IMG/VR virus record: IMGVR_UViG_3300044641_003586
Location: 1-62,763 of that record
Source: a virus
Direction: 5' to 3' (one strand)
DNA: 62,763 nucleotides
The notes beneath the pieces were generated by a model. It saw only the letters and a list, made by a program, of their open reading frames with translations. It was not told the DNA's origin and did no database searches. Shown here in pieces: positions 3,461 through 26,178 of this stretch (position 1 is its first letter; the number at the start of each line of letters is the position of its first letter). Position numbers and translations under genes: made by a program.

Positions 3461-6400
3461 GGTGTAGCTGTGCGACTACGATACCCGCGATACACTTTCT
3501 TCAATGCCCGATCACGAATTTGATCGGCTTTATCATGTAAGAAGGCTTTGGCGCGTTCAGGGTCCATTTGCAAGGCGCGTGGTCCATAGCGTAGAATCAT
3601 CGCTTTATAGCCCTTTCCAGTCTCAAAAGAATAGGCATCAGCTTCTTCTTGAGTCAGGCGACGACGATTGCGACCTTTGCCGACCATCCGGTATTCAGCG
3701 TTGGCTGGTGTAAGCCAGATGTTGCGGGAGTTGAGAGCACCAAGGATCTGATAGACAGGTTCAGTCTTTCCAACAAGGAACTCGCGAGAGCCTGGCAAAG
3801 TGTTGGCCTTGATTGGATCTCCAAGGATATTGTAGTAATCCTCGCCTACATAGCGGCGATAGAATGGGACTTTTCCAGCAAACTTCTCCCAGATGGTTGT
3901 GTATTTGCGACGATTATCGTCCAAGATGTAATCCACATCCATGAATGGTTTTGGAATGAAGCCACCAACCCAATTTGCTGTTGTGGCACCAATGTTCTCC
4001 CAGAACTGCTCTGTTGGATCACTGGACGATACTGAACGACCCATGAGAGTTCCAAGTCCTTGAAGGGCAGGCAAGTCAAGAGTTGAGGACAAACCAGATG
4101 CGGCAACGGATAGTGCTACATCCAATTTGGATTTATCGTTCCACTTGTCAGGCGAGAAGCGGATAATGTCAGATATAGCTCCAACAGCAGCAAACAGTTG
4201 GCTATATGGGGAGTTCTGGTAGTTCCAGACATACCATTTACCACCAATCTTAGCACCAAGTCGGTATTCCAGTTTGCCGCTTTCTTGAAGCTGCCTGCGT
4301 TTATCCGTAGGGACGTTCTTCAAGCCACCATTGATGAAAAATCCGCGTTCTTCATCATCAGGCTCATCTGCGATAGCTCGCAGCAAAATAGAACCAGCCC
4401 CCACAAAAAACATACCAACCATCTGATTGCGCTTAATCATGTCGTAAAACGCTTCTTTACGATCAGCCAGTTGATTGTTGCTGGCCTCCCATCCGCGAAG
4501 TATTCCAACAAACGGAATGAAGCTCAATCCTTGATTAAATTTATTGCTGGCAAATCGGGCGAATCTCAAGCCGATCATGTTGATTGCATTGTAGGCAATA
4601 AAGTGAGCGACAAACATTCCAGCCAGCTTTGCGTTTTCAAGCGACATCGGCCCAGCAACAGCAGCTTTGAGCTTTTGTTCTGCCAACTTACGGCGCATGA
4701 ACTCTTGCACTTCAACATCTGCACTGCGAATCTTGTTGTAAACGATTCCGCCAATGCCAGTTGGATTCATTGTCATAGCGGATTCACTCGCGAAGAAGTC
4801 GGCATTTTCCAACTTTGCCCCTTCTTTGTTCATTGCCTCATACATCATGGCTTCAGCCGTTGCATTGAGAAGCGCTCTTTTCTCAGAGTTCATCTGAGCA
4901 AAGTATGGATCTGAAGCAAGAATCTGTTGGCGATAATGCTCCAACGAAGCCTTCTCAAGAATGCGTTGATGATCTTCAGGATTCTTTGTCCCTAGTCGAA
5001 CTGCCATTGATAGCATTCCACGCTTTGTCAAAATGGTGTTGAATCCATCAAGAGCAGTCATCATTCGGCTAATCATAACCGAGAATTTACCCATCCATTG
5101 AGTCACCTTCTGGGGATCATTAGCCATTGCTTCAGCCACCTTGCGATAACGAAGCACGTCAGCCCATCCACGGAAGATGCGATCTGGAGCAGATGCTTCG
5201 CTTTCAAGGAACTCGACACGACCCGTATTCAAATAATGCCATGAACGCTCAAGTGCTTCTGGAAACGCTTCAATGTAACGCTTAATGTCATTTAGTGAAT
5301 CAAAAGTAGAGTAGAAAGCCCCTTTGAAATCGCCATTTATCAGATTCGACATGATCTTCATTGGCAGATTGACCATGATGATATTGGCCCCGTTTAAGAA
5401 AGCCAAGCCAATCGCAATCATCGTATTCCAACCAGCCAAGACAGAACTTGTCCAGAATGCAGATAGACGCTCACTCCAACCAACCTTTGTGTCATTGACC
5501 AAGGCAAAGGCTAGGTCATTAGCTGCTTGATTTCTCTTGTTCTTGGGAAGCGTTTCGTCTTGAAGAATATCAACGAGCCTTTGAATATTCTCACGCTCTG
5601 CTTCTGTGAGTTCCATTTTGATGCCAAACTTCTCGCCCAATATGCGCGTGAAAGCATCATTGCTAAGAGCATTCAAATTCAAATGCTGGATAACCTGCAA
5701 ACGAGTCTTGTTTAGAACATCACCAGCATGACGGCGTTTAGCCCTGTCCAACTGTTGAGTATAGTTATCAATGATTTGATTGACTACCTTATCAAGTTGC
5801 TGCTGCCACACATCAGCGAACATATCCGCTAAGCGTTCTTTTACCTCTGAATCCACACTAGCTAGGTCTGGATTTGCCATAATTGCATCCAGAACTTTTT
5901 GGCGATATTCCGCAACAGATTTAGCTGGCTTACTAAGCAGCTCTTTCCAAGGAATTGGGCTACGCAATGGGACTTCAAGTCTGGTGCGAACATTGCGAAT
6001 TTCATCCAACATCTTTTGAAGTGCTCTTGGGCCTTCAATCATGTCGAAGACTCTAGTGCGCTGTCTATCGCGGCGTTCGCGAGCTGCTGTGTTGAACAAG
6101 CTCTCAGCTAAATCAAATGTGACTCCCAACTTATCAAGACGTTCAACAAATGTTTTCAGATCTGTCGGTGAAGAAACTTGATCGGTGAAAGCGTCAATAA
6201 CTGTATCTCCATCAACTTCTTTTTCGAGAGCATCTGGTCGAATATCACCCCTAGTATAGATGATTCTTCTGGCCTGATCTTTTCTCATTTCAACCGAACG
6301 GACGGCAGCACGGGAGGCAATATCAAAGTATTTCTTTACCTGTTTTGGCGTGAGATTGAACCTGGACAGCTTTTTGGCAAAATCATCCATCGAAACAGGA

Positions 6401-18125: not shown

Positions 18126-19952
18126 ATGATACCCATGGGTAGAATGAAAAAGAAACCTACCGGACAACCAAAGTTTGTTCAGTTGACCAAGACGATCAAC
18201 ACCTATGGCATTGAGCTGAAAAACATGCCCCCAAATCAGCTAGAAGTTGAGCTGATGTTTATGAAATGTCCTACGGGGAGCACGCTCAACTATGGGAATG
18301 TTCCTAATCCCAAAGGGCATCCAAATTGGATTCATTTCATCAATGCTGTGAATCTGATTTGGAATTATCCTGGCACACGCACGCCTTTCATGTGGCATCC
18401 TTGGGCGGTCAAAATGGTCAAAGCAGCTTTTGAGAACAAGCGTTTGGCTGTCACTTCTGGAGGTTCAGGCGGGAAAACAGGTGTTTTTGCCGTTTTTGCT
18501 CTTGTTTGGTGGCTGGCTGGTCCAACAAGGAACGTAGTTCTAGTCAATACCACGACCATTAAAGACTCGATGGGACGTATCTGGGGCCAAATTACTCGCT
18601 ATTTCAATGGCATGGTGGCTCGACCTGCTGGCAAATTGGTTGAATCCTCCCATTGCATCAAATCCATCGACCTAAAAACAGGGGCAGTTATGGAGGAATA
18701 CGGCATCCGTTTGTTTGCCGGTGAATCCAGTAAAGCGGCTGAGTCTTCTCGCGCTATTCGAGGACAGAAGCATGGCCCTAATGGTAAAATTATTGTTATT
18801 CTGGACGAGTGCGCCGAGCTTTCTAAAGCCATTGTAAATACCTTCGAGGAAAACATTACTCAGAACCCGAATGTGCAGCTCATAGCCCTAGCGAATGCCA
18901 ATAGCCCATTCGATACCTTTGGTGATCTCTGTGAGCCAAAAGAAGGCGGATGGGACGCTTATAACCCCGATTGGGAGGAATGGGAAGGCAAAGGGGCGCA
19001 TGTCCTACGGATCAACAACGAAACCTCGCCAAACATCCTTGAAGGACGGACCATCTACCCATTCTTGATGACTCGCGAGATGTTGGAAGAAAAGCGAGAA
19101 AAGCTAGGGCAACATACCCGTGCTTACTGGCGTGGTGTTTTAGGGGCGTTCCTGCTGGATGGAGACGACGATAATATCTATTCCCCTGCCGAAATCTTGA
19201 AGGTTCCCAATGACTGTGTTTGGCAAGGCATCCCAACAAAGGTCTGTGGCATTGACCTGTCCTATACTAGCGGTGGCGATAAGACAATTATGACGATTGC
19301 CAGTATCGGTATTTGCACTGATGGGAAAAAGCGTCTCAAATTTGAGAAACACATTGCCCTTAATGATGATGCCTCTAGGCGCGATGTAGATCGAACCACT
19401 CAGTTGATTGACCAGATCAAAGATATTTGCACCAAAGAGGGAATTGACATCAAAAACGTGGCAATCGACGCATCAGCAGGTGGCGGCAAGACCTTTGCGG
19501 ATGCCATGTGGAGCAAGTGGGGCAATACCTTCCTGCGGGTGGACTTTGGTGGGAAAGCATCTGATCGTCCTGTTTCCGCTGCTGATCGTGAGAAATCCAG
19601 TGTGCGCTATGCCAATCGCGTGTCCGAACTTTGGGGAAGCGGCAAAGAACTCATCCGTTGCGACCAACTTCGCAATATCACAAAGGAGATGGCTGCTGAA
19701 ATGACAGTCCGGCAATACAAAGACAACAAAGCTCAGGATGGTGGTTCTCGCATCCGAGTAGAGTCAAAAGTGGATATGAAGCGTAGAACAGGCAAAAGCC
19801 CTGACTACTTTGATAGTGCAGCCGTTCTTATTGAACTATGCCGAGAAAGACATGGACTGTCTAGCATCGACAAGCCTGGCAATGTCCGAGAAGGAGTCCC
19901 AAGTCCATTGAAGAAGAAATTCAACCAGCTTGCGGGACTGTGGGCGGCATAA
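18126..19952 (+). CDS. terL: Terminase large subunit
   Basis: 608 residues; the DNA-packaging motor. The ATPase half has a P-loop-like GGSGGKTG near residue 114 in the adenine-binding context HPWAVKMVKAAF, a Walker B with catalytic Glu in VILDECAELS near 222, and the coupling motif ALANANSP near 256. The nuclease half has GIDLSYTSGGDKT near 377 and AIDASAGGGKT near 445, as expected of the RNase H-like terminase nuclease. It stands alone on the plus strand between two leftward structural blocks and overlaps the end of the next leftward gene by 32 bases. No small subunit is adjacent. Confidence 0.92.
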   Translation: MIPMGRMKKKPTGQPKFVQLTKTINTYGIELKNMPPNQLEVELMFMKCPTGSTLNYGNVPNPKGHPNWIHFINAVNLIWNYPGTRTPFMWHPWAVKMVKAAFENKRLAVTSGGSGGKTGVFAVFALVWWLAGPTRNVVLVNTTTIKDSMGRIWGQITRYFNGMVARPAGKLVESSHCIKSIDLKTGAVMEEYGIRLFAGESSKAAESSRAIRGQKHGPNGKIIVILDECAELSKAIVNTFEENITQNPNVQLIALANANSPFDTFGDLCEPKEGGWDAYNPDWEEWEGKGAHVLRINNETSPNILEGRTIYPFLMTREMLEEKREKLGQHTRAYWRGVLGAFLLDGDDDNIYSPAEILKVPNDCVWQGIPTKVCGIDLSYTSGGDKTIMTIASIGICTDGKKRLKFEKHIALNDDASRRDVDRTTQLIDQIKDICTKEGIDIKNVAIDASAGGGKTFADAMWSKWGNTFLRVDFGGKASDRPVSAADREKSSVRYANRVSELWGSGKELIRCDQLRNITKEMAAEMTVRQYKDNKAQDGGSRIRVESKVDMKRRTGKSPDYFDSAAVLIELCRERHGLSSIDKPGNVREGVPSPLKKKFNQLAGLWAA

Positions 19953-20793
19953 ACGCATTGCCCAAAACTGCTCTAAAAATAGCTGTTTTGACAAGATCTT
20001 CTCCAACTTGAGACACCCAATGCTTTGTCATCTCGACCATCATCGGATGGTTGATGTTGCCGTAGATCTCTAGCCAACCTGTGTAGTAGTTGTGAAGTTT
20101 ATCTTCAAGAGTTAGCGGGAAGGTGCGAATCGGCCAGTTGAAGCGATGGTTCCAACCCATTTTAGGATGGCAAATCACCTTTCCACCATTGCGTCTAACT
20201 TTCTCAGCCATATACCATTCCTCTCCACCAAAACCACGAAAGCCTTGGTTGATTTCTGGAGCGTTGGCTTTGACGAATGAGAAACAACCCATACCTTGTG
20301 CTGGAACCTCAAAAGGTTCGCCTGATTTCATACCTTCTTTGTTATCACCCCAGATGCCGAAATCATGGCCCCGCCACACAGGATTGATCTGCTCGCTGGT
20401 AGCTCTCAAGTTGTCATACAAAAGCGGACCTGTAAGCATGTTCTTGGAATCCATATTTCCAGACCAGTATTCCATCATGGCGGCAATAAACCCCGTTTGA
20501 AGCAGCACATGGCAATCTAGGCCAAGAATGATGTCGCCCTTTGCTAGCTTGAAAACGTCATACTTCACAAAGCTGCTTTTTCGGTCAGTGACATCCACCA
20601 CGCGCATGTTCGGCACATCCTTGGCGAAATGCTTTAACTGCTTGCCGTGTGCGCTATCAGGGTTGTTGTCTAAGACAAGAAACTCAGTGTTATCAGGCAG
20701 GTCTTGGTGCATTCGGATGGACTGGATGGAAAAAAAAACTCCATCAAAATCATCGAAGGTTGCCATTGATATGGTTAGCGGTGTTGCTTGCAT
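19921..20793 (-). CDS. Family 2-like (GT-A) glycosyltransferase
   Basis: 290 residues. The start has the GT-A nucleotide-sugar pattern (TISMATFDDFDGVFFSIQS, then FLVLDNNPDS). A DxD-like metal site is GLDCHV near residue 93. The later FGGEEWYMAEKV carries the acidic residues expected for the acceptor-side base. It probably moves a sugar from a nucleotide donor in the cytoplasm. It is the last cistron of a run of Thr-rich surface protein, GT9-like gene and pyruvyltransferase-like gene, overlapping its upstream neighbour by 19 bases and terL by 32. The donor and acceptor cannot be told from sequence. Confidence 0.8.
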   Translation of the reverse strand: MQATPLTISMATFDDFDGVFFSIQSIRMHQDLPDNTEFLVLDNNPDSAHGKQLKHFAKDVPNMRVVDVTDRKSSFVKYDVFKLAKGDIILGLDCHVLLQTGFIAAMMEYWSGNMDSKNMLTGPLLYDNLRATSEQINPVWRGHDFGIWGDNKEGMKSGEPFEVPAQGMGCFSFVKANAPEINQGFRGFGGEEWYMAEKVRRNGGKVICHPKMGWNHRFNWPIRTFPLTLEDKLHNYYTGWLEIYGNINHPMMVEMTKHWVSQVGEDLVKTAIFRAVLGNAFMPPTVPQAG

Positions 20794-21761
20794 AAAAAAT
20801 TTCTAATTATGTCATAATAAACTGCTTCACTTTCATCTCTGAGAAGACGCAAACGATACATTTCTTTTGAAAGAGAACCATCAGCAAGCATTTTGTTTGC
20901 ACTTAAAAGTGCTTGTTGTGGATCGTTAATTTCTGGTATTCCCAATAAATTAGCACAAGTTGATATGCGATAATTTTTGACACTTGATGTGAGAATTGAA
21001 GGAGTTCCAGAAGAATTGGCGGCAATAGCTCCGTGCAAACGAGTTGATACAACTATTTCAGCACTAGAAAACGTGGTTATGAGATCATGGTAACTGCCAA
21101 TCATAAACGGTAAATTATTCTGCATGGCAAATATAGCTTCTGAATAAGCATGGCAAACTAAAGACCAACCATCAAGAACTGCTGATTGTAAAAAATCGCC
21201 ACTTATAGGAACACTGCCATGTGGAGATTTAGCATCTTGAAAAACAAGAATCTTGCCATTCTTTTTGGTATTTTTTTTAGGAAAGCAAAACAACGCAGGA
21301 CATGGTAATGCCACACTTTTTACTCCTAAATCAACAAGCGTTTTGTTTAATTGATGATTTCGACAAACAACAAGACATTGATCTCTTTTCATAAGAGAGA
21401 GAATCAAATCGTTTGGTTTTTCATTTGGATTGCAAGAACCTATACCTAAAAACATGACTGGTGTATCAGGTTGAGTCAACAGATGCTCAATAATTGGTTT
21501 TGTTCTCCAAGAGTCCCATTCTGGAGTTCCGGCAAAAATAATCAAATCCCAAGGCAGTTGAATATTTTTATGACCAATATGCAAAGACACCGGATTGCTT
21601 CTGCTTGCATCTAAATCTGGATTTCTGTTATAGAAAAACCAATTACATTCACCAATAACATTTTGAATCAAGTTTTGAACGCCTTCTCTAATGAAGTCAT
21701 CACCTGGATTCCAACCATTAGTCGTGCTTACCAATATATTGAGTCGTTGCGAACAAGACAT
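20775..21761 (-). CDS. Polysaccharide pyruvyltransferase-like protein
   Basis: About 328 residues from MSCSQRLNILVS (21761); an in-frame ATG at 21788 is also possible. It carries hallmarks of the CsaB/PssM-type family: ILVSTTNGWNPGDDFI at the N-terminus, a central FLGIGSCNP, and the C-terminal VSTRLHGAIAANSSGTPS. Known members transfer pyruvate from phosphoenolpyruvate to sugars as ketals; some relatives are sugar transferases. Placed between two glycosyltransferases, it probably modifies the same glycan. Its base composition is visibly more A/T-rich than the capsid genes, hinting at separate acquisition. Confidence 0.78.
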   Translation of the reverse strand: MSCSQRLNILVSTTNGWNPGDDFIREGVQNLIQNVIGECNWFFYNRNPDLDASRSNPVSLHIGHKNIQLPWDLIIFAGTPEWDSWRTKPIIEHLLTQPDTPVMFLGIGSCNPNEKPNDLILSLMKRDQCLVVCRNHQLNKTLVDLGVKSVALPCPALFCFPKKNTKKNGKILVFQDAKSPHGSVPISGDFLQSAVLDGWSLVCHAYSEAIFAMQNNLPFMIGSYHDLITTFSSAEIVVSTRLHGAIAANSSGTPSILTSSVKNYRISTCANLLGIPEINDPQQALLSANKMLADGSLSKEMYRLRLLRDESEAVYYDIIRNFLCKQHR

Positions 21762-22431
21762 CTTCGACAGTAATTTTTTTAATATCATGTTTATGAATTG
21801 AAATAGTATATCCGCAATGATTTCTCCATGAAATGGGAACTTTGTCCATTAAAACTATATATGGTTTTTTGATACTAGCTGCAAAATGCGATAAACCTGT
21901 ATCCACAGTGATAAATGATTTAGCGTGAAAAATCAAAGTAGCCAATTCATTTGGTGGCAAGACTTTACCAAGCATAGAAGTATCAGCATTTTTAATCTGA
22001 ACTTTGTTCCATTTTCCAACCTGTATTACCGGAGCGTCCAATCTATCAACAAGTGATGCCCAATTATCTTCACTCCAGTGTCTCTCTTTAGTAGATGCTT
22101 CAGCGCAAATAACATAATATGGCTCTTTATGTGAGGTTTGAATCGGGATATTCAAATCTGGTATTAAATCTGATATAGTCAGTTGATTTAATTCAGCTAC
22201 TTTAGTTACAAGATTTGAATTTCCATCGCAGATCAGTTTGTATTCAATATCCGCAGGTTCTGGCTTTGATACAATTTTGATTGTGTAAGGATACCACTTC
22301 AAGAAATCGCCAAAAACAGATTGAACAATAATCTCATCGTTATGGTGCTTTTTACAGATAGCTCTTAACGCTGGTTCTGAGCAAATAAAGTCACCTAAAA
22401 AACAATGCGTTTTTACTAAAACACGACTCAT
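21718..22431 (-). CDS. Family 9-like (heptosyltransferase-type, GT-B) glycosyltransferase, short form
   Basis: 237 residues, shorter than the usual 320-350 of ADP-heptose transferases. The N-terminal VKTHCFLGDFICSEPALRAI matches the family's GD-containing loop. The C-terminal half has VICAEASTKERHWSEDNWASLV and FITVDTGLSHFAASIKKP, the donor-binding D-[ST]-G-x-x-H signature. It is coupled to the Thr-rich protein gene by an ATGA overlap at 22428-22431. It probably transfers a sugar to a phage or host acceptor. The loss of part of the N-terminal domain may mean a simplified acceptor site. Confidence 0.8.
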   Translation of the reverse strand: MSRVLVKTHCFLGDFICSEPALRAICKKHHNDEIIVQSVFGDFLKWYPYTIKIVSKPEPADIEYKLICDGNSNLVTKVAELNQLTISDLIPDLNIPIQTSHKEPYYVICAEASTKERHWSEDNWASLVDRLDAPVIQVGKWNKVQIKNADTSMLGKVLPPNELATLIFHAKSFITVDTGLSHFAASIKKPYIVLMDKVPISWRNHCGYTISIHKHDIKKITVEDVLFATTQYIGKHD

Positions 22432-23891
22432 GGGCCAGCAGTTGTTGTTGTAGTGGGCGGCTGAGTAGTGGTTGTGGTCGTTGTCGTGGTTGTGCTAGTT
22501 GTCGTAGTTGTCGGGCAAGTTGCCACTGCTGCTACTCCACTTGTGTAAAGATAAGTGGTCATTCCGTAAATGAAGTAGCCGTTGAACAAGGTGCTCAATC
22601 CAGCATCAGTAAATCCTGTGTCAGTGTTATTAAACGTAGAGTTCGCTGTATAGATAGTTACAGGATTTCCATCACAGTCCACTCCATTGTAAGCATACCC
22701 CGGAGGCGCAGTGGTTGTAGTGCTTGTGGAAGTGGTTGTGCTACTGGTTGTAGTTGTGCTGGAGGTAGTTGTGCTAGAGGTAGTTGTAGTTGTTGTGGGG
22801 CAGAACTGACCTTTTTCAGTTTTGAATCCAGAAGCAAATTGAACCAACTGTCTTGGATTAGCACTATCGTAGAAAAGTCCAGTAACAAGACCAAATGGAT
22901 CACGCGCTTCACACTCAGCAGATGAGTGGTAGTATGTCCGACCAAAACTAGGCCAATCATGGTAGTATAGCGTTACCGATGTAGATCCAGAACTGCATCC
23001 AAGGTAATACGTTTCAGAACCACATGGGGGAGAAGTTGTTGTAGTCGAAGTCGTTGTGGTAGAAGTTGTTGATGTGGTTGTTGAGCAATAGTTACCCAAA
23101 TTGGTTTTTATACCGTTAACGATTTCAACTAGCTCTCTAGGATAGCTATTGGTGTAATATAAAGCAGTTGCAAGGTAAGTTGGATCTAAAGATGCACAGG
23201 CATCCATTGTCTCGTAGTATTCATTTTCAGTTCCATTGAAATGATAATAGAGATTGGTGACAGAAGCATTTTCCTCACATCCCAAACGGAATGATTCTGT
23301 ATTGCACGGAGGCGGTGTCGTAGTTGTAGTCGTTGAAGTTGTAGTTGTCGTGCTGAATGGCGGACACGTTGTGCCTTGATAATATTTTACACCATCCACA
23401 AAATTGTATTTAGCCCGTGGATTTTCATCGCTGTAATAAACACCATTTACTAGGCTAAATGAATTGGATATTTCACAATCCGTTAGTGATTCATAATAAA
23501 TATTATTATAAGCATTATCAGTATGAGTGTAGAGATAAACAGAAATATCTCCCGGATCGCAACCAACCCACCACAACTCTGTCGAACATGGCCCGATTGT
23601 TGGTGTTGTTGTAGTTAGCGTAGGTGGAGGTGGATCACCACCAAGAAATGCAACTTGTCCAGTTATGATTCCATTTTTTGTTTGAAGCTGAAGAAAAGAT
23701 CCTGGTCCAAATGGAATTTGATTGTTACTAAAATCATCCACCTGAACATTGGATTTTGGTAATGTGCTAATAACCAAGGAGTTATCACTTCTTGGAATGT
23801 TGACTTCAATTCCAGACATTCCCCAAGTCCAGCTCCTATTATTAAATGGACTGCTGGTAGGATCAAAGTCGCCTTGAATGCCTTGTATCAT
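22428..23891 (-). CDS. Mucin-like surface protein: four small modules joined by poly-Thr linkers
   Basis: 487 residues. After an N-terminal head (1-90), compact modules at about 101-176, 196-269, 289-364 and 397-459 are separated by nearly pure Thr/Ser stretches at about 179-195, 270-288, 365-396 and 460-485. The first three modules are homologous: an early Cys (PC or CN/CG), LGC or VGC, YYH/YTH, a middle Cys (DCE/ACA/ECE), a YY or FY near NPR/YPR, NG or SG, then a terminal C. Threonine tracts this dense resemble O-glycosylated mucin linkers. Three sugar-transfer genes follow immediately, the first coupled by ATGA. I infer a virion appendage or receptor-binding protein whose linkers are glycosylated. 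Confidence 0.72.
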   Translation of the reverse strand: MIQGIQGDFDPTSSPFNNRSWTWGMSGIEVNIPRSDNSLVISTLPKSNVQVDDFSNNQIPFGPGSFLQLQTKNGIITGQVAFLGGDPPPPTLTTTTPTIGPCSTELWWVGCDPGDISVYLYTHTDNAYNNIYYESLTDCEISNSFSLVNGVYYSDENPRAKYNFVDGVKYYQGTTCPPFSTTTTTSTTTTTTPPPCNTESFRLGCEENASVTNLYYHFNGTENEYYETMDACASLDPTYLATALYYTNSYPRELVEIVNGIKTNLGNYCSTTTSTTSTTTTSTTTTSPPCGSETYYLGCSSGSTSVTLYYHDWPSFGRTYYHSSAECEARDPFGLVTGLFYDSANPRQLVQFASGFKTEKGQFCPTTTTTTSSTTTSSTTTTSSTTTSTSTTTTAPPGYAYNGVDCDGNPVTIYTANSTFNNTDTGFTDAGLSTLFNGYFIYGMTTYLYTSGVAAVATCPTTTTTSTTTTTTTTTTQPPTTTTTAGP

Positions 23892-24733
23892 TGTATGACT
23901 TCCTCTGGAGGACTTGGCGGATAGATTGTTACACGCTCACGCAGCCAAAGACCATTAGTGGGTTGTTGTCTATCTTCAATGATGAAAGGTGCCCAATCAA
24001 GGAAATTAGTAGCTGGAAAAATCTGTCTGTTCACATTTCTTCCCATTGGAGCTGGAGCAACGCCGACTCCATAAATAATGGATTCAGCATTAAGTCTTGG
24101 GAAAACAACCGTTGGGTGAAGGCATCTTTGAAAGCTAATATTCAATCCAACATAAAATCCATCAATATCCGTTGGAACAGGTTGGGCATGAATCAAATCA
24201 TTCTCAGGCCATGCCACATCACTTAACAACTGCTCCACCTTAATAATGGAATTATGACTTACTGCTGGACGATAACGATAACGAGGCAGCAATCTATTGG
24301 TGGTTTCTGTTTTTGAGCCAATATTGATAACTTGAGGAAAGCCAATTACATTTGATACGAAAAGATCTTCCAAAACAGCAGGCCAAGTGTATTGGCGTGT
24401 GTCATACCAATAATTGAATGGTTTATTGCGTTCTGTCACTGTTTTGGGTTTGCCAAAATACAAAGTCACATGGTCAGCGTCACCTTTTTCACTCCGAAGG
24501 TAAACATAGTCACCATATCCGGGAAACTTACTCAAGAACTCACGGCCAACAGTCCATCCGCATTGGCGAAAAGTTGTTGGTTGCTTGCCATCAATCTTTG
24601 CGGATTGAGCGGATAAGAGTGTTGAACCATCTGGAAATACAAGTCCTGGACCTACTCTGTCCTGTGGAATGCGGACACTGAACATGAACTCCTCTTGATG
24701 AGGGGTCGTTAGGACTTGGAAATCGCTAGGCAT
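23888..24733 (-). CDS. Hypothetical tail or appendage protein
   Basis: 281 residues, no recognised domain. It is rich in aromatic and beta-prone residues (RYRYRPAVSH, YVYLRSEKGDADHVTLYFGKP) without transmembrane helices or a signal peptide. Both ends overlap neighbours (ATGA at 23888-23891 and one base at 24733), which places it in one translational unit with the mucin-like protein and the glycine-rich protein upstream. A structural tail or fibre-base role is likely from context. Confidence 0.65.
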   Translation of the reverse strand: MPSDFQVLTTPHQEEFMFSVRIPQDRVGPGLVFPDGSTLLSAQSAKIDGKQPTTFRQCGWTVGREFLSKFPGYGDYVYLRSEKGDADHVTLYFGKPKTVTERNKPFNYWYDTRQYTWPAVLEDLFVSNVIGFPQVINIGSKTETTNRLLPRYRYRPAVSHNSIIKVEQLLSDVAWPENDLIHAQPVPTDIDGFYVGLNISFQRCLHPTVVFPRLNAESIIYGVGVAPAPMGRNVNRQIFPATNFLDWAPFIIEDRQQPTNGLWLRERVTIYPPSPPEEVIQ

Positions 24734-25467
24734 TACTCGGTTTCAGGAGGTGAATTGGAGATTTGATCGCCATCTGCCCAAACAGCATACAGATATACTG
24801 GCGTAGTATTATTAGCTTGTTTAAAACGCCAATGAGTCTTTTTCAACAAGGTTTGACGCAATGGTATATGCGCTGCCTCATCACTCAAGGTATTAACCGT
24901 GGGCGTCAGTGTAAATCCACTGGTTGTTATAGTGGTCGATAGTCCAGAAGAAGGCGCACTACCCCCCATGCTTGGACCCTGTTCGCTTCTAGCAGAAGAC
25001 CCACCTCCATAGGCGAGAACAACTCCATTACCTCCAAATGGATTCGATGTGCTACTTTGGGCTGATCCGCCAAACTGTCCTTGCATATTAGAGTTAAACT
25101 GATCGCGGAACTCTGAACTCCATACAGATAATTCAGGCCGGGAATGAATCAAAACTCCAGCAGTAATATTAGACCCTAGATTGCCTGCTGATCCACCTGC
25201 GGATGCTGCAAGTTGGAAATCATTGCCGTTTTTGTTGACCACATAATATGTAGTATTAACCGCCAATGCAGAACCACCTGTTAGTGAGGTGAAATAAACT
25301 GGATCATTATTAGCAAGTTCATTGCCAACGATTGTCACCACATCAGTAGTATTATCACCTGTTACGCTAGGGTAAACGGTTTGCGCTCCCGTTAAGGTGA
25401 TTTCGTCGATTTTGGCAAATTTTTGCCAACGTCGATCTTTCCTGTATAAATATAGGTCTGAGGCCAT
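24733..25467 (-). CDS. Tail-appendage protein with fibre-type beta repeat
   Basis: 244 residues from MASDLYLYRKD (25467); the frame extends to 25503 but the inner start gives a cleaner leader. Residues about 50-95 (ANNDPVYFTSLTGGSALA, NTTYYVVN, NDFQLAASAGGSA) match a beta repeat common in phage tail fibres and surface proteins. A Gly/Ser-rich middle and a beta-rich C-terminus follow. It is the first gene of the leftward block that includes the mucin-like protein, so it probably belongs to the same virion appendage. Confidence 0.68.
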   Translation of the reverse strand: MASDLYLYRKDRRWQKFAKIDEITLTGAQTVYPSVTGDNTTDVVTIVGNELANNDPVYFTSLTGGSALAVNTTYYVVNKNGNDFQLAASAGGSAGNLGSNITAGVLIHSRPELSVWSSEFRDQFNSNMQGQFGGSAQSSTSNPFGGNGVVLAYGGGSSARSEQGPSMGGSAPSSGLSTTITTSGFTLTPTVNTLSDEAAHIPLRQTLLKKTHWRFKQANNTTPVYLYAVWADGDQISNSPPETE

Positions 25468-25486
25468 GATTTTGCATTTTAACCGC

Positions 25487-25515
25487 TTGACAGGGGAAGG
25501 CAAGCGGGATTAAAT
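25487..25515 (+). promoter_or_regulatory. Sigma-70-like promoter for a small RNA
   Basis: TTGACA (25487-25492), a 17-bp spacer and TTAAAT (25510-25515, four of six to consensus) face right, away from the leftward gene that starts at 25467. No protein gene starts within 400 bases downstream, but a structured RNA and a strong terminator do. Confidence 0.6.
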
Positions 25516-25521
25516 GAACCC

Positions 25522-25610
25522 ACAAATAGGTTTGCTCGGACTAGGAGCGATCCGACCCACAGCAAACCGCTCTGAGGCCGTCTTCTAGTCCAAGACGGCC
25601 TCTTTGTTTG
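25522..25610 (+). ncRNA. Candidate small structured RNA with loop-loop complementarity
   Basis: Expected transcript of about 90 nt from the promoter at 25487. GGTTTGCT (25529-25536) pairs perfectly with AGCAAACC (25561-25568), enclosing a CGGA/TCCG mini-stem. The second hairpin is the terminator. Its whole 7-nt loop, CTAGTCC (25585-25591), is perfectly complementary to GGACTAG (25538-25544) in the first hairpin. GAGCG (25545-25549) can also pair with CGCTC (25568-25572). This suggests a kissing-loop or switching fold. I recognise no known family. A regulatory RNA acting on host or phage mRNA is possible; a non-functional leader is the alternative. Confidence 0.55.
25574..25610 (+). terminator. 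Strong intrinsic terminator
   Basis: A perfect 11-bp stem, GAGGCCGTCTT with AAGACGGCCTC, and a 7-nt loop (25574-25602) are followed by the T-rich TTTGTTTG. It ends the candidate small RNA. Confidence 0.8.
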
Positions 25611-25944
25611 CCGTTCTAGAGTCAACACTCGCACCTGAAAAGGCGGTCACTTGGCAAAGGTAAAATCAACGGGTGTCGGTGTTAGTCCAGCCGACGTAAA
25701 TCGACCTTGGTAATTCTTGGTCATGTGCTCGCCGGTAGCAAAACTATCGGGGCAACGCCTGTCCATTCAACCGTGCTTATAATGCTGAGCTACCGTCACG
25801 GGGATAGGTCTGGGTCAAACCAGTATGTTCTCGGCCTGCCTCACCGCTGAAAAGCAAGGTAATCGAAACATCGTAGTCTCCCCTTTTGGGGACTACTATG
25901 CCCCGACACAACCCCACACAACTGAAAGCAAGGTAAGTTACAAC
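25611..25944 (+). promoter_or_regulatory. Long untranslated leader before the small rightward operon
   Basis: No convincing gene. A perfect TATAAT (25778-25783) in the context TGCTTATAAT could be the promoter of the genes starting at 25945, although no good -35 is visible. Hairpins: CCGGTAG/CTATCGG (25732-25750), CTGG/CCAG just after 25810, and GTAGT...GGGGACTAC (25873-25896). GAAAGCAAGGTAA-type sequence occurs twice (near 25848 and 25923), the second time just before the start at 25945. An ORF running from 25825 through this region is less likely than the inner start. Confidence 0.4.
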
Positions 25945-26178
25945 ATGACAACTAATTCAGACTACTACACACCAAAAATAGCAAGAGAACTTCACATTGA
26001 CCTCAATATGACCAACGAAATCACCGAACTAAAACGCAAACTAGCCGAGCAAGACGAGATCATCCGAGAACTCAACGAGCGAGCTTCTAGCCATCTCATT
26101 ACCATGCTGAACACCGTTCAGAAGTTGAAGCTGGAAAACGATATGATGAACGCCAAACTGCGCCAGAAAAACCAATGA
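25945..26178 (+). CDS. Small coiled-coil protein
   Basis: 77 residues from MTTNSDYYTPK, chosen because AAGG lies upstream and the longer frame from 25825 runs through hairpins. A heptad-like helix (ITELKRKLAEQDEIIRELNE, then LKLENDMMNAKLRQ) fills most of it. The gene is coupled by ATGA to the Xre-type regulator. The function is unknown; oligomerisation with or modulation of the regulator is possible. Confidence 0.65.
   Translation: MTTNSDYYTPKIARELHIDLNMTNEITELKRKLAEQDEIIRELNERASSHLITMLNTVQKLKLENDMMNAKLRQKNQ

Follow-up and report, generated by a model that had tools for sequence, protein, structure and literature searches.

Organization of the locus

The stretch of DNA analyzed here (the window) is a 62,763-bp IMG/VR virus record of an uncultured phage. 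The original prediction described a small RNA gene in it, and the letters bear this out. The -35 hexamer TTGACA is located at 25487-25492 and is followed, after a spacer of 17 nt, by TTAAAT at 25510-25515. The 8-bp stem is exact (GGTTTGCT at 25529-25536 pairs with AGCAAACC at 25561-25568), and so is the 11-bp terminator stem (GAGGCCGTCTT at 25574-25584 pairs with AAGACGGCCTC at 25592-25602), behind which TTTGTTTG follows. The whole 7-nt terminator loop, CTAGTCC at 25585-25591, exactly matches the reverse complement of GGACTAG at 25538-25544 in hairpin 1, and the parts of a promoter-to-terminator unit without coding sequence are present as described. The statement that no protein gene lies in reach holds for the plus strand, where the next ATG is at 25945, and fails for the minus strand, where the start of a divergent gene (25467) is 20 nt away from the -35 region. 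A GNRA mini-hairpin, a second structured RNA directly downstream and a dyad over the promoter go beyond the prediction. The two RNAs are termed RNA1 and RNA2, and the features of the locus are as follows.

24733..25467, minus strand: divergent tail-fibre-like gene, 244 aa (PHROG 9370, E 6.6e-5)
25483..25507, no strand: dyad CCGCTTG...CAAGCGG over the promoter, core GCTTGAC-N8-GCAAGYGRGATTA (letters, shuffles, viral contigs)
25487..25515, plus strand: putative sigma-70-like promoter TTGACA-N17-TTAAAT (letters checked; relatives with TTGAC-N-TATGGT)
25523..25610, plus strand: RNA1, small RNA, start at ~25521-25523, end in the U-tract (comparison, alignment, folding)
25529..25568, plus strand: hairpin 1 with helix P1, 25529-25536 / 25561-25568 (two-sided changes at 3 of 8 positions in class 1 and 1 of 7 in class 2)
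25538..25544, plus strand: X, GGACTAG, 5' half of the loop-loop helix P3 (covariation)
25545..25552, plus strand: P2, mini-hairpin GA-GCGA-TC with GNRA tetraloop (two-sided changes at 4 of 5 positions)
25574..25602, plus strand: P4, terminator hairpin of 11 bp (two-sided changes at 12 of 13 positions)
25585..25591, plus strand: X', CTAGTCC, the entire terminator loop, pairing with X (covariation)
25603..25610, plus strand: U-tract TTTGTTTG (letters)
25611..25906, plus strand: RNA2, second structured noncoding stretch, with a 3' hairpin at 25873-25896 followed by TATGCCCCGA (folding, comparison)

A random 7-mer would fit anywhere in the 24-nt loop of hairpin 1 with a probability of about 0.001. 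The 90-nt RNA1 fold has a free energy of -36.7 kcal/mol (z -4.95) and none of 200 shuffles was as stable; for 20 hand-structured alleles, the z values ranged from -2.6 to -7.4. According to the minimum-energy fold, UUUG of the U-tract could pair with the 5' CAAA at 25523-25526, a pairing that shows no covariation because these bases are largely invariant.

The -10 region of the window is weak, with only four of six consensus matches, and a simple consensus scan missed this promoter since it demands an A at position 2. The dyad is not expected by chance (0 in 100 shuffles of the window). Its pattern was found in 32 viral contigs when spacings of 6-10 were allowed, and as all matches were 28 bp long, the spacing is always 8. 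It can also be read as a near-symmetric CTTGAC-N8-GCAAG, and in the window a second sigma-70-like site, TTGCCT-N16-TAAAAT, is present on the minus strand. Judged from the sequence, the dyad and both promoters possibly form a shared divergent promoter/operator.

Occurrence of RNA1 in other phages

The search for relatives did not rely on the loop complementarity; contigs were retrieved with a neighbouring structural protein, the terminase, the promoter dyad and 5'-half patterns of the RNA (P1/P2). RNA1 was found in 61 viral contigs besides the window: 32 via the dyad, five more via the protein, L071, L111, and 16 and 6 via the first and the second 5'-half pattern, respectively. These represent 28 distinct RNA1 sequences, namely 26 listed ones, L111 and L171. 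X and X' are complementary over 6-9 nt in all 28, although the listing of the 26 is not a test of complementarity, which was required for entry. In a first check of 17 distinct downstream stretches, comprising 12 loop types as cut by the script, the match was 5-8 nt, the lowest value of 5 nt being due to one loop that was cut short. A scan of 60 loci detected a terminator in 25, every one of them with 6-8 nt of complementarity; the other 35 showed no terminator, but one of these, L171, proved a valid member on reading.

Among 40 loci fetched with a profile of the 281-aa structural protein, 30 carried RNA1 in front of the neighbouring gene. Eight distant loci of this set had no RNA1 at this place; of these eight, L104 has only 532 bp upstream and L111 carries RNA1 elsewhere. 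Another contig, L024, does not reach the place. Most distant relatives are without RNA1. The close relative L110 keeps the homologous gene and a related dyad and lacks both RNA1 and RNA2, which indicates that RNA1 is dispensable. A covariance model found one further member, L111, with 29.9 bits and 9 nt of complementarity; since ordinary bacterial terminators receive 25-31 bits with this model, the membership of L111 rests on its letters and not on the score.

In prokaryote genomes, the promoter pattern occurred in five contigs, and by eye none had the hairpins behind it (L093 was readable for only 61 nt from the match start). Model R1 gave matches with E ≤ 0.001 in at least 10 of 398 genomes from the phylum of a Rhodoferax MAG, with 10 candidates scored per genome. 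The best five of ten matched genomes were fetched: the four readable alignments were ordinary terminators without matching X/X', and the fifth match is known from its table row only. The terminase of the window had no match in 369 genomes. Neither the 281-aa structural protein nor a portal-sized protein of 758 aa, which is read as the portal and has no family match, was matched in 50,697 records of isolate phages, and two stretches read in HTVC010P-like isolates contained no RNA1.

Covariation and loop-loop pairing

In a structure-based alignment of 15 members, 90.5% of the cells were paired and 19 pairs showed two-sided changes, compared to 8.3 in shuffles; none of 500 shuffles reached any of five measures. 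The alignment was fitted to P1, P2 and P4 and not to P3. Two-sided compensatory changes occurred in all seven pairs of the loop-loop helix P3, and shifting the partners along the alignment abolished the signal. The unpaired P3 cells (17%) belong mostly to the rows of L121, L147 and L016, where the alignment register is off by one.

A hand count of Watson-Crick cells in 20 alleles gave 93 of 97 for P1 of class 1, 45 of 49 for P1 of class 2, 63 of 67 for P2 and 201 of 210 for P4. Class 2 (L003, L001, L098, L100, L165, L166, and L169) has a different P1 and a 5' GAAA hairpin, with the order of parts unchanged. P2 is capped by a GNRA loop, except for three alleles with a 6-nt loop. All 20 hand-structured alleles, belonging to 11 X families, had an X/X' complementarity of 6-8 nt, whereas X and X' of different families matched over 2-7 nt (at most 5 nt in 308 of 356 comparisons). 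As P1, P2 and P4 contain 14 G-U but only two A-C wobble cells, RNA1 is placed on the plus strand and an RNA on the minus strand is ruled out. A coding sequence was rejected because the RNA lengths vary by 1-2 nt among alleles, and chance or artefact because of the covariation.

The covariance analysis over related phages that had been suggested revealed stems and loop complementarity kept with changed letters. Relatives keeping neither were not encountered, every RNA1-bearing relative having both, which supports the original prediction. Since the two loops stay complementary through compensatory change, as in kissing loops or pseudoknots, and the relatives keep this pairing with different letters, we regard RNA1 as practically certain to be a real RNA containing a loop-loop helix. 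At the level of sequence comparison, these data establish the strand of RNA1, its four helices and the pairing between its loops.

Twelve types of X were distinguished: GGACTAG, GTAGAAG, GTGCAA(G), GTGCGA(A), GTTCGAG, GTGGAGC(A), GTTGCAG, CTGAGAAA, GGGTGCA(A), GGGTGAGA, GGGTGGCA and CGTTGCGGG. The window and L054, for example, have the same P1 arms and nearly identical junctions and differ in X and the P4 stem. Twelve types amid near-identical surroundings would suit an RNA acting in trans, whose X/X' pairs type-specifically with another RNA, either a target or the copy of a co-infecting phage. Plasmids offer a precedent in the ColE1 RNA I and CopA-type antisense RNAs of ~100 nt, in which 6-7-nt loops set type specificity, and the 7-nt loop of RNA1 has the size of known loop-loop kissing pairs. 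In the plasmid systems, however, the matching loop belongs to another RNA, encoded antisense, whereas X and X' are complementary parts of a single RNA. Moreover, full 7-mer sites for X or X' were absent near 29 own gene starts and X was not enriched in RNA2; pairing of X with RNA2 or own mRNA starts was rejected for this lack of excess sites. A special diversification of X is not needed either: because P4 varies equally, the variation of X is read as a constraint on pairing only and not as proof of diversifying selection. We therefore regard action in trans as rather improbable. The X:X' contact would probably lie within one molecule.

RNA1 and RNA2 in different phage backgrounds

RNA1 is present in at least three unlike phage backgrounds, adjoined by tail-fibre or capsid genes. 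In the group of the window it faces away from the tail-fibre-like gene. In a second group (L117, L121, L123, L147, L151, and L163) it lies between two podophage genes, which are read as scaffold and capsid genes; the capsid protein of L123 is ~37% identical to capsid proteins of Pelagibacter phages. The distance between the scaffold-like and the capsid-like gene is 734 nt in L147, whereas in two isolates of this kind the capsid gene is preceded by just 88 and 189 nt, with no match to RNA1. The cassette of RNA1 and RNA2 therefore looks inserted between these genes. The third background is formed by L118, L130, L133 and L162, of which L118, L130 and L162 were read.

Directly behind RNA1, a noncoding stretch of 300-700 nt was found in all contexts read (17 sequence clusters and L111). 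This RNA2 is located on the minus strand at 7660-8364 in L111 and at ~4950-5550 in L118. The folds of its first 300 nt were below the shuffle mean in 17 of 17 cases, although modestly (z -0.4 to -3.4), and seven related sequences of one subgroup showed compensatory changes in 16 of 44 predicted pairs. The arms of RNA2 are exchangeable, and of 20 sequences read, several, though not all, showed its 3' hairpin followed by (T)ATGC.

The genes downstream of RNA2 differ, being HTH-like in the window and HNH-type ORFs, as judged by eye, in others. Such small HNH-type ORFs were seen behind RNA2 in L001, L039, L066, and L073 and are absent behind that of the window. A leader of one fixed gene was rejected because the downstream genes vary among groups.

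The main rival to a free RNA is an attenuator, with RNA1 as the 5' leader of a longer transcript comprising RNA2 and, in part of the phages, small genes, and docking of X on the terminator loop deciding between stop and read-through. RNA1 may be a leader because it is always promoter-proximal to RNA2, lying directly behind the promoter with RNA2 directly behind it in the 17 clusters and L111, and because the consensus scan, run on the window only, listed no plus-strand promoter between 25515 and 26500. The joint absence of RNA1 and RNA2 from L110 fits as well. On the other hand, X:X' and the terminator stem can form together without competition, and the letters of P4 change freely while the upstream parts are fixed, so that no antiterminator pairing is conserved. 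The stretch from RNA2 to the convergent scaffold gene yielded no plus-strand gene in L117 and L147. An attenuator thus appears unlikely, though less so than the other alternatives, and a free RNA is the moderately favoured choice between the two.

Apart from the RNAs, a comparison of 18126-25467 of the window with L065 and L079 shows the terminase on opposite sides of the tail-fibre cassette in the two phage groups, a rearrangement near the RNA locus. A gene of the window at 22428-23891 (minus strand) encodes a 487-aa protein without PHROG or Pfam match, in which long threonine-serine linkers separate repeated Cys-containing modules.

Comparison with known RNAs

RNA1 matched no Rfam family, in line with the original prediction, whose author knew of none. 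A search with 4227 Rfam families gave no match at or above the gathering score in the window and eight loci, a search of six loci gave none at E ≤ 1, and 25460-25660 had chance-level matches only, far below gathering. In the literature, mostly outside subscription papers, no description of RNA1 was found. RNA1 is thus apparently undescribed; it constitutes a clearly supported RNA family outside Rfam in several phage lineages and a concrete object for testing small structured phage RNAs. It is an unusual design for an intrinsic terminator to have its loop locked to the remainder of the RNA.

The phi29 prohead RNA (pRNA), which the packaging motor requires, has an Rfam model that RNA1 did not match. 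According to PMC12670572, pRNA is likewise a phage RNA; its two loops are complementary to each other and remain so while their sequences vary. By analogy, X and X' could join neighbouring copies of RNA1 into a ring on the motor or capsid, and the covarying loops and the capsid or tail genes adjoining RNA1 in two phage groups would suit such a packaging role. However, pRNA has pairs of only 3-4 nt between molecules and a three-way junction (PMC12670572), whereas RNA1 pairs over 6-9 nt, uses the loop of an intrinsic terminator as one partner and has an additional GNRA mini-hairpin. Considering also that RNA1 is dispensable in L110, we regard a packaging RNA as very improbable.

HK022 put RNA is not known to have a terminator of its own; RNA1 carries a U-tract behind hairpin 2. 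RNA1 and putL/putR have in common a promoter-proximal position in a phage, two hairpins and a length of ~70-90 nt (PMC9378689); put, however, prevents termination by contacting RNA polymerase. A put-like antiterminator acting in cis on RNA polymerase is the least probable of the alternatives, with hardly any weight.

Proposed role of RNA1 and RNA2

The best reading of the sequences is that RNA1 represents a new family of phage RNAs that are compact and loop-locked and probably act through a bound partner. Transcription of RNA1 (~85-105 nt) would start at a promoter of its own and stop at its own intrinsic terminator. While the terminator forms, 6-9 nt of its loop X' would pair with X in the hairpin 1 loop, and this lock would give RNA1 a compact fold in which the 3' end is guarded. 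Locked RNA1 would then present a fixed face consisting of 5' CAAAUA, the GGUUU side of P1 and the GA-GNRA-UC mini-hairpin. The sequence of P1 and P2 is largely kept within a class, whereas X:X' and the terminator stem change freely while pairing; RNA1 therefore is probably held by a partner rather than reading a target. This partner may be a host or phage protein, or RNA2. A free-standing, loop-locked RNA1 that is held by a partner and belongs to a cassette with RNA2 is, on balance, slightly favoured. As X:X' is exchangeable as a pair, simple swaps would separate intramolecular locking, dimerisation and targeting.

RNA1 would travel among phages in the noncoding cassette with RNA2. More tentatively, the two could form a two-part cassette moving among unrelated aquatic phages, in which RNA2 would represent a novel family of large structured RNAs that swap arms while their 3' end stays fixed, with RNA1 as its gatekeeper or partner, the loop-lock setting whether and how the pair is made. 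Large structured phage RNAs are also known as GOLLD and ROOL, which have kissing loops, and GOLLD combines a conserved 3' region with a variable 5' region (PMC12286853). RNA2 differs from them by being shorter and by having no Rfam match in the window and the loci of relatives, with the GOLLD and ROOL models included; also, ARAGORN found no tRNA or tmRNA nearby, either in the window or in 20 loci including L118. As a separate observation, RNA2 of L118 contains at ~5364-5387 (minus strand) a stretch resembling a tRNA T-arm, ACTGG-TTCAAGT-CCAGT.
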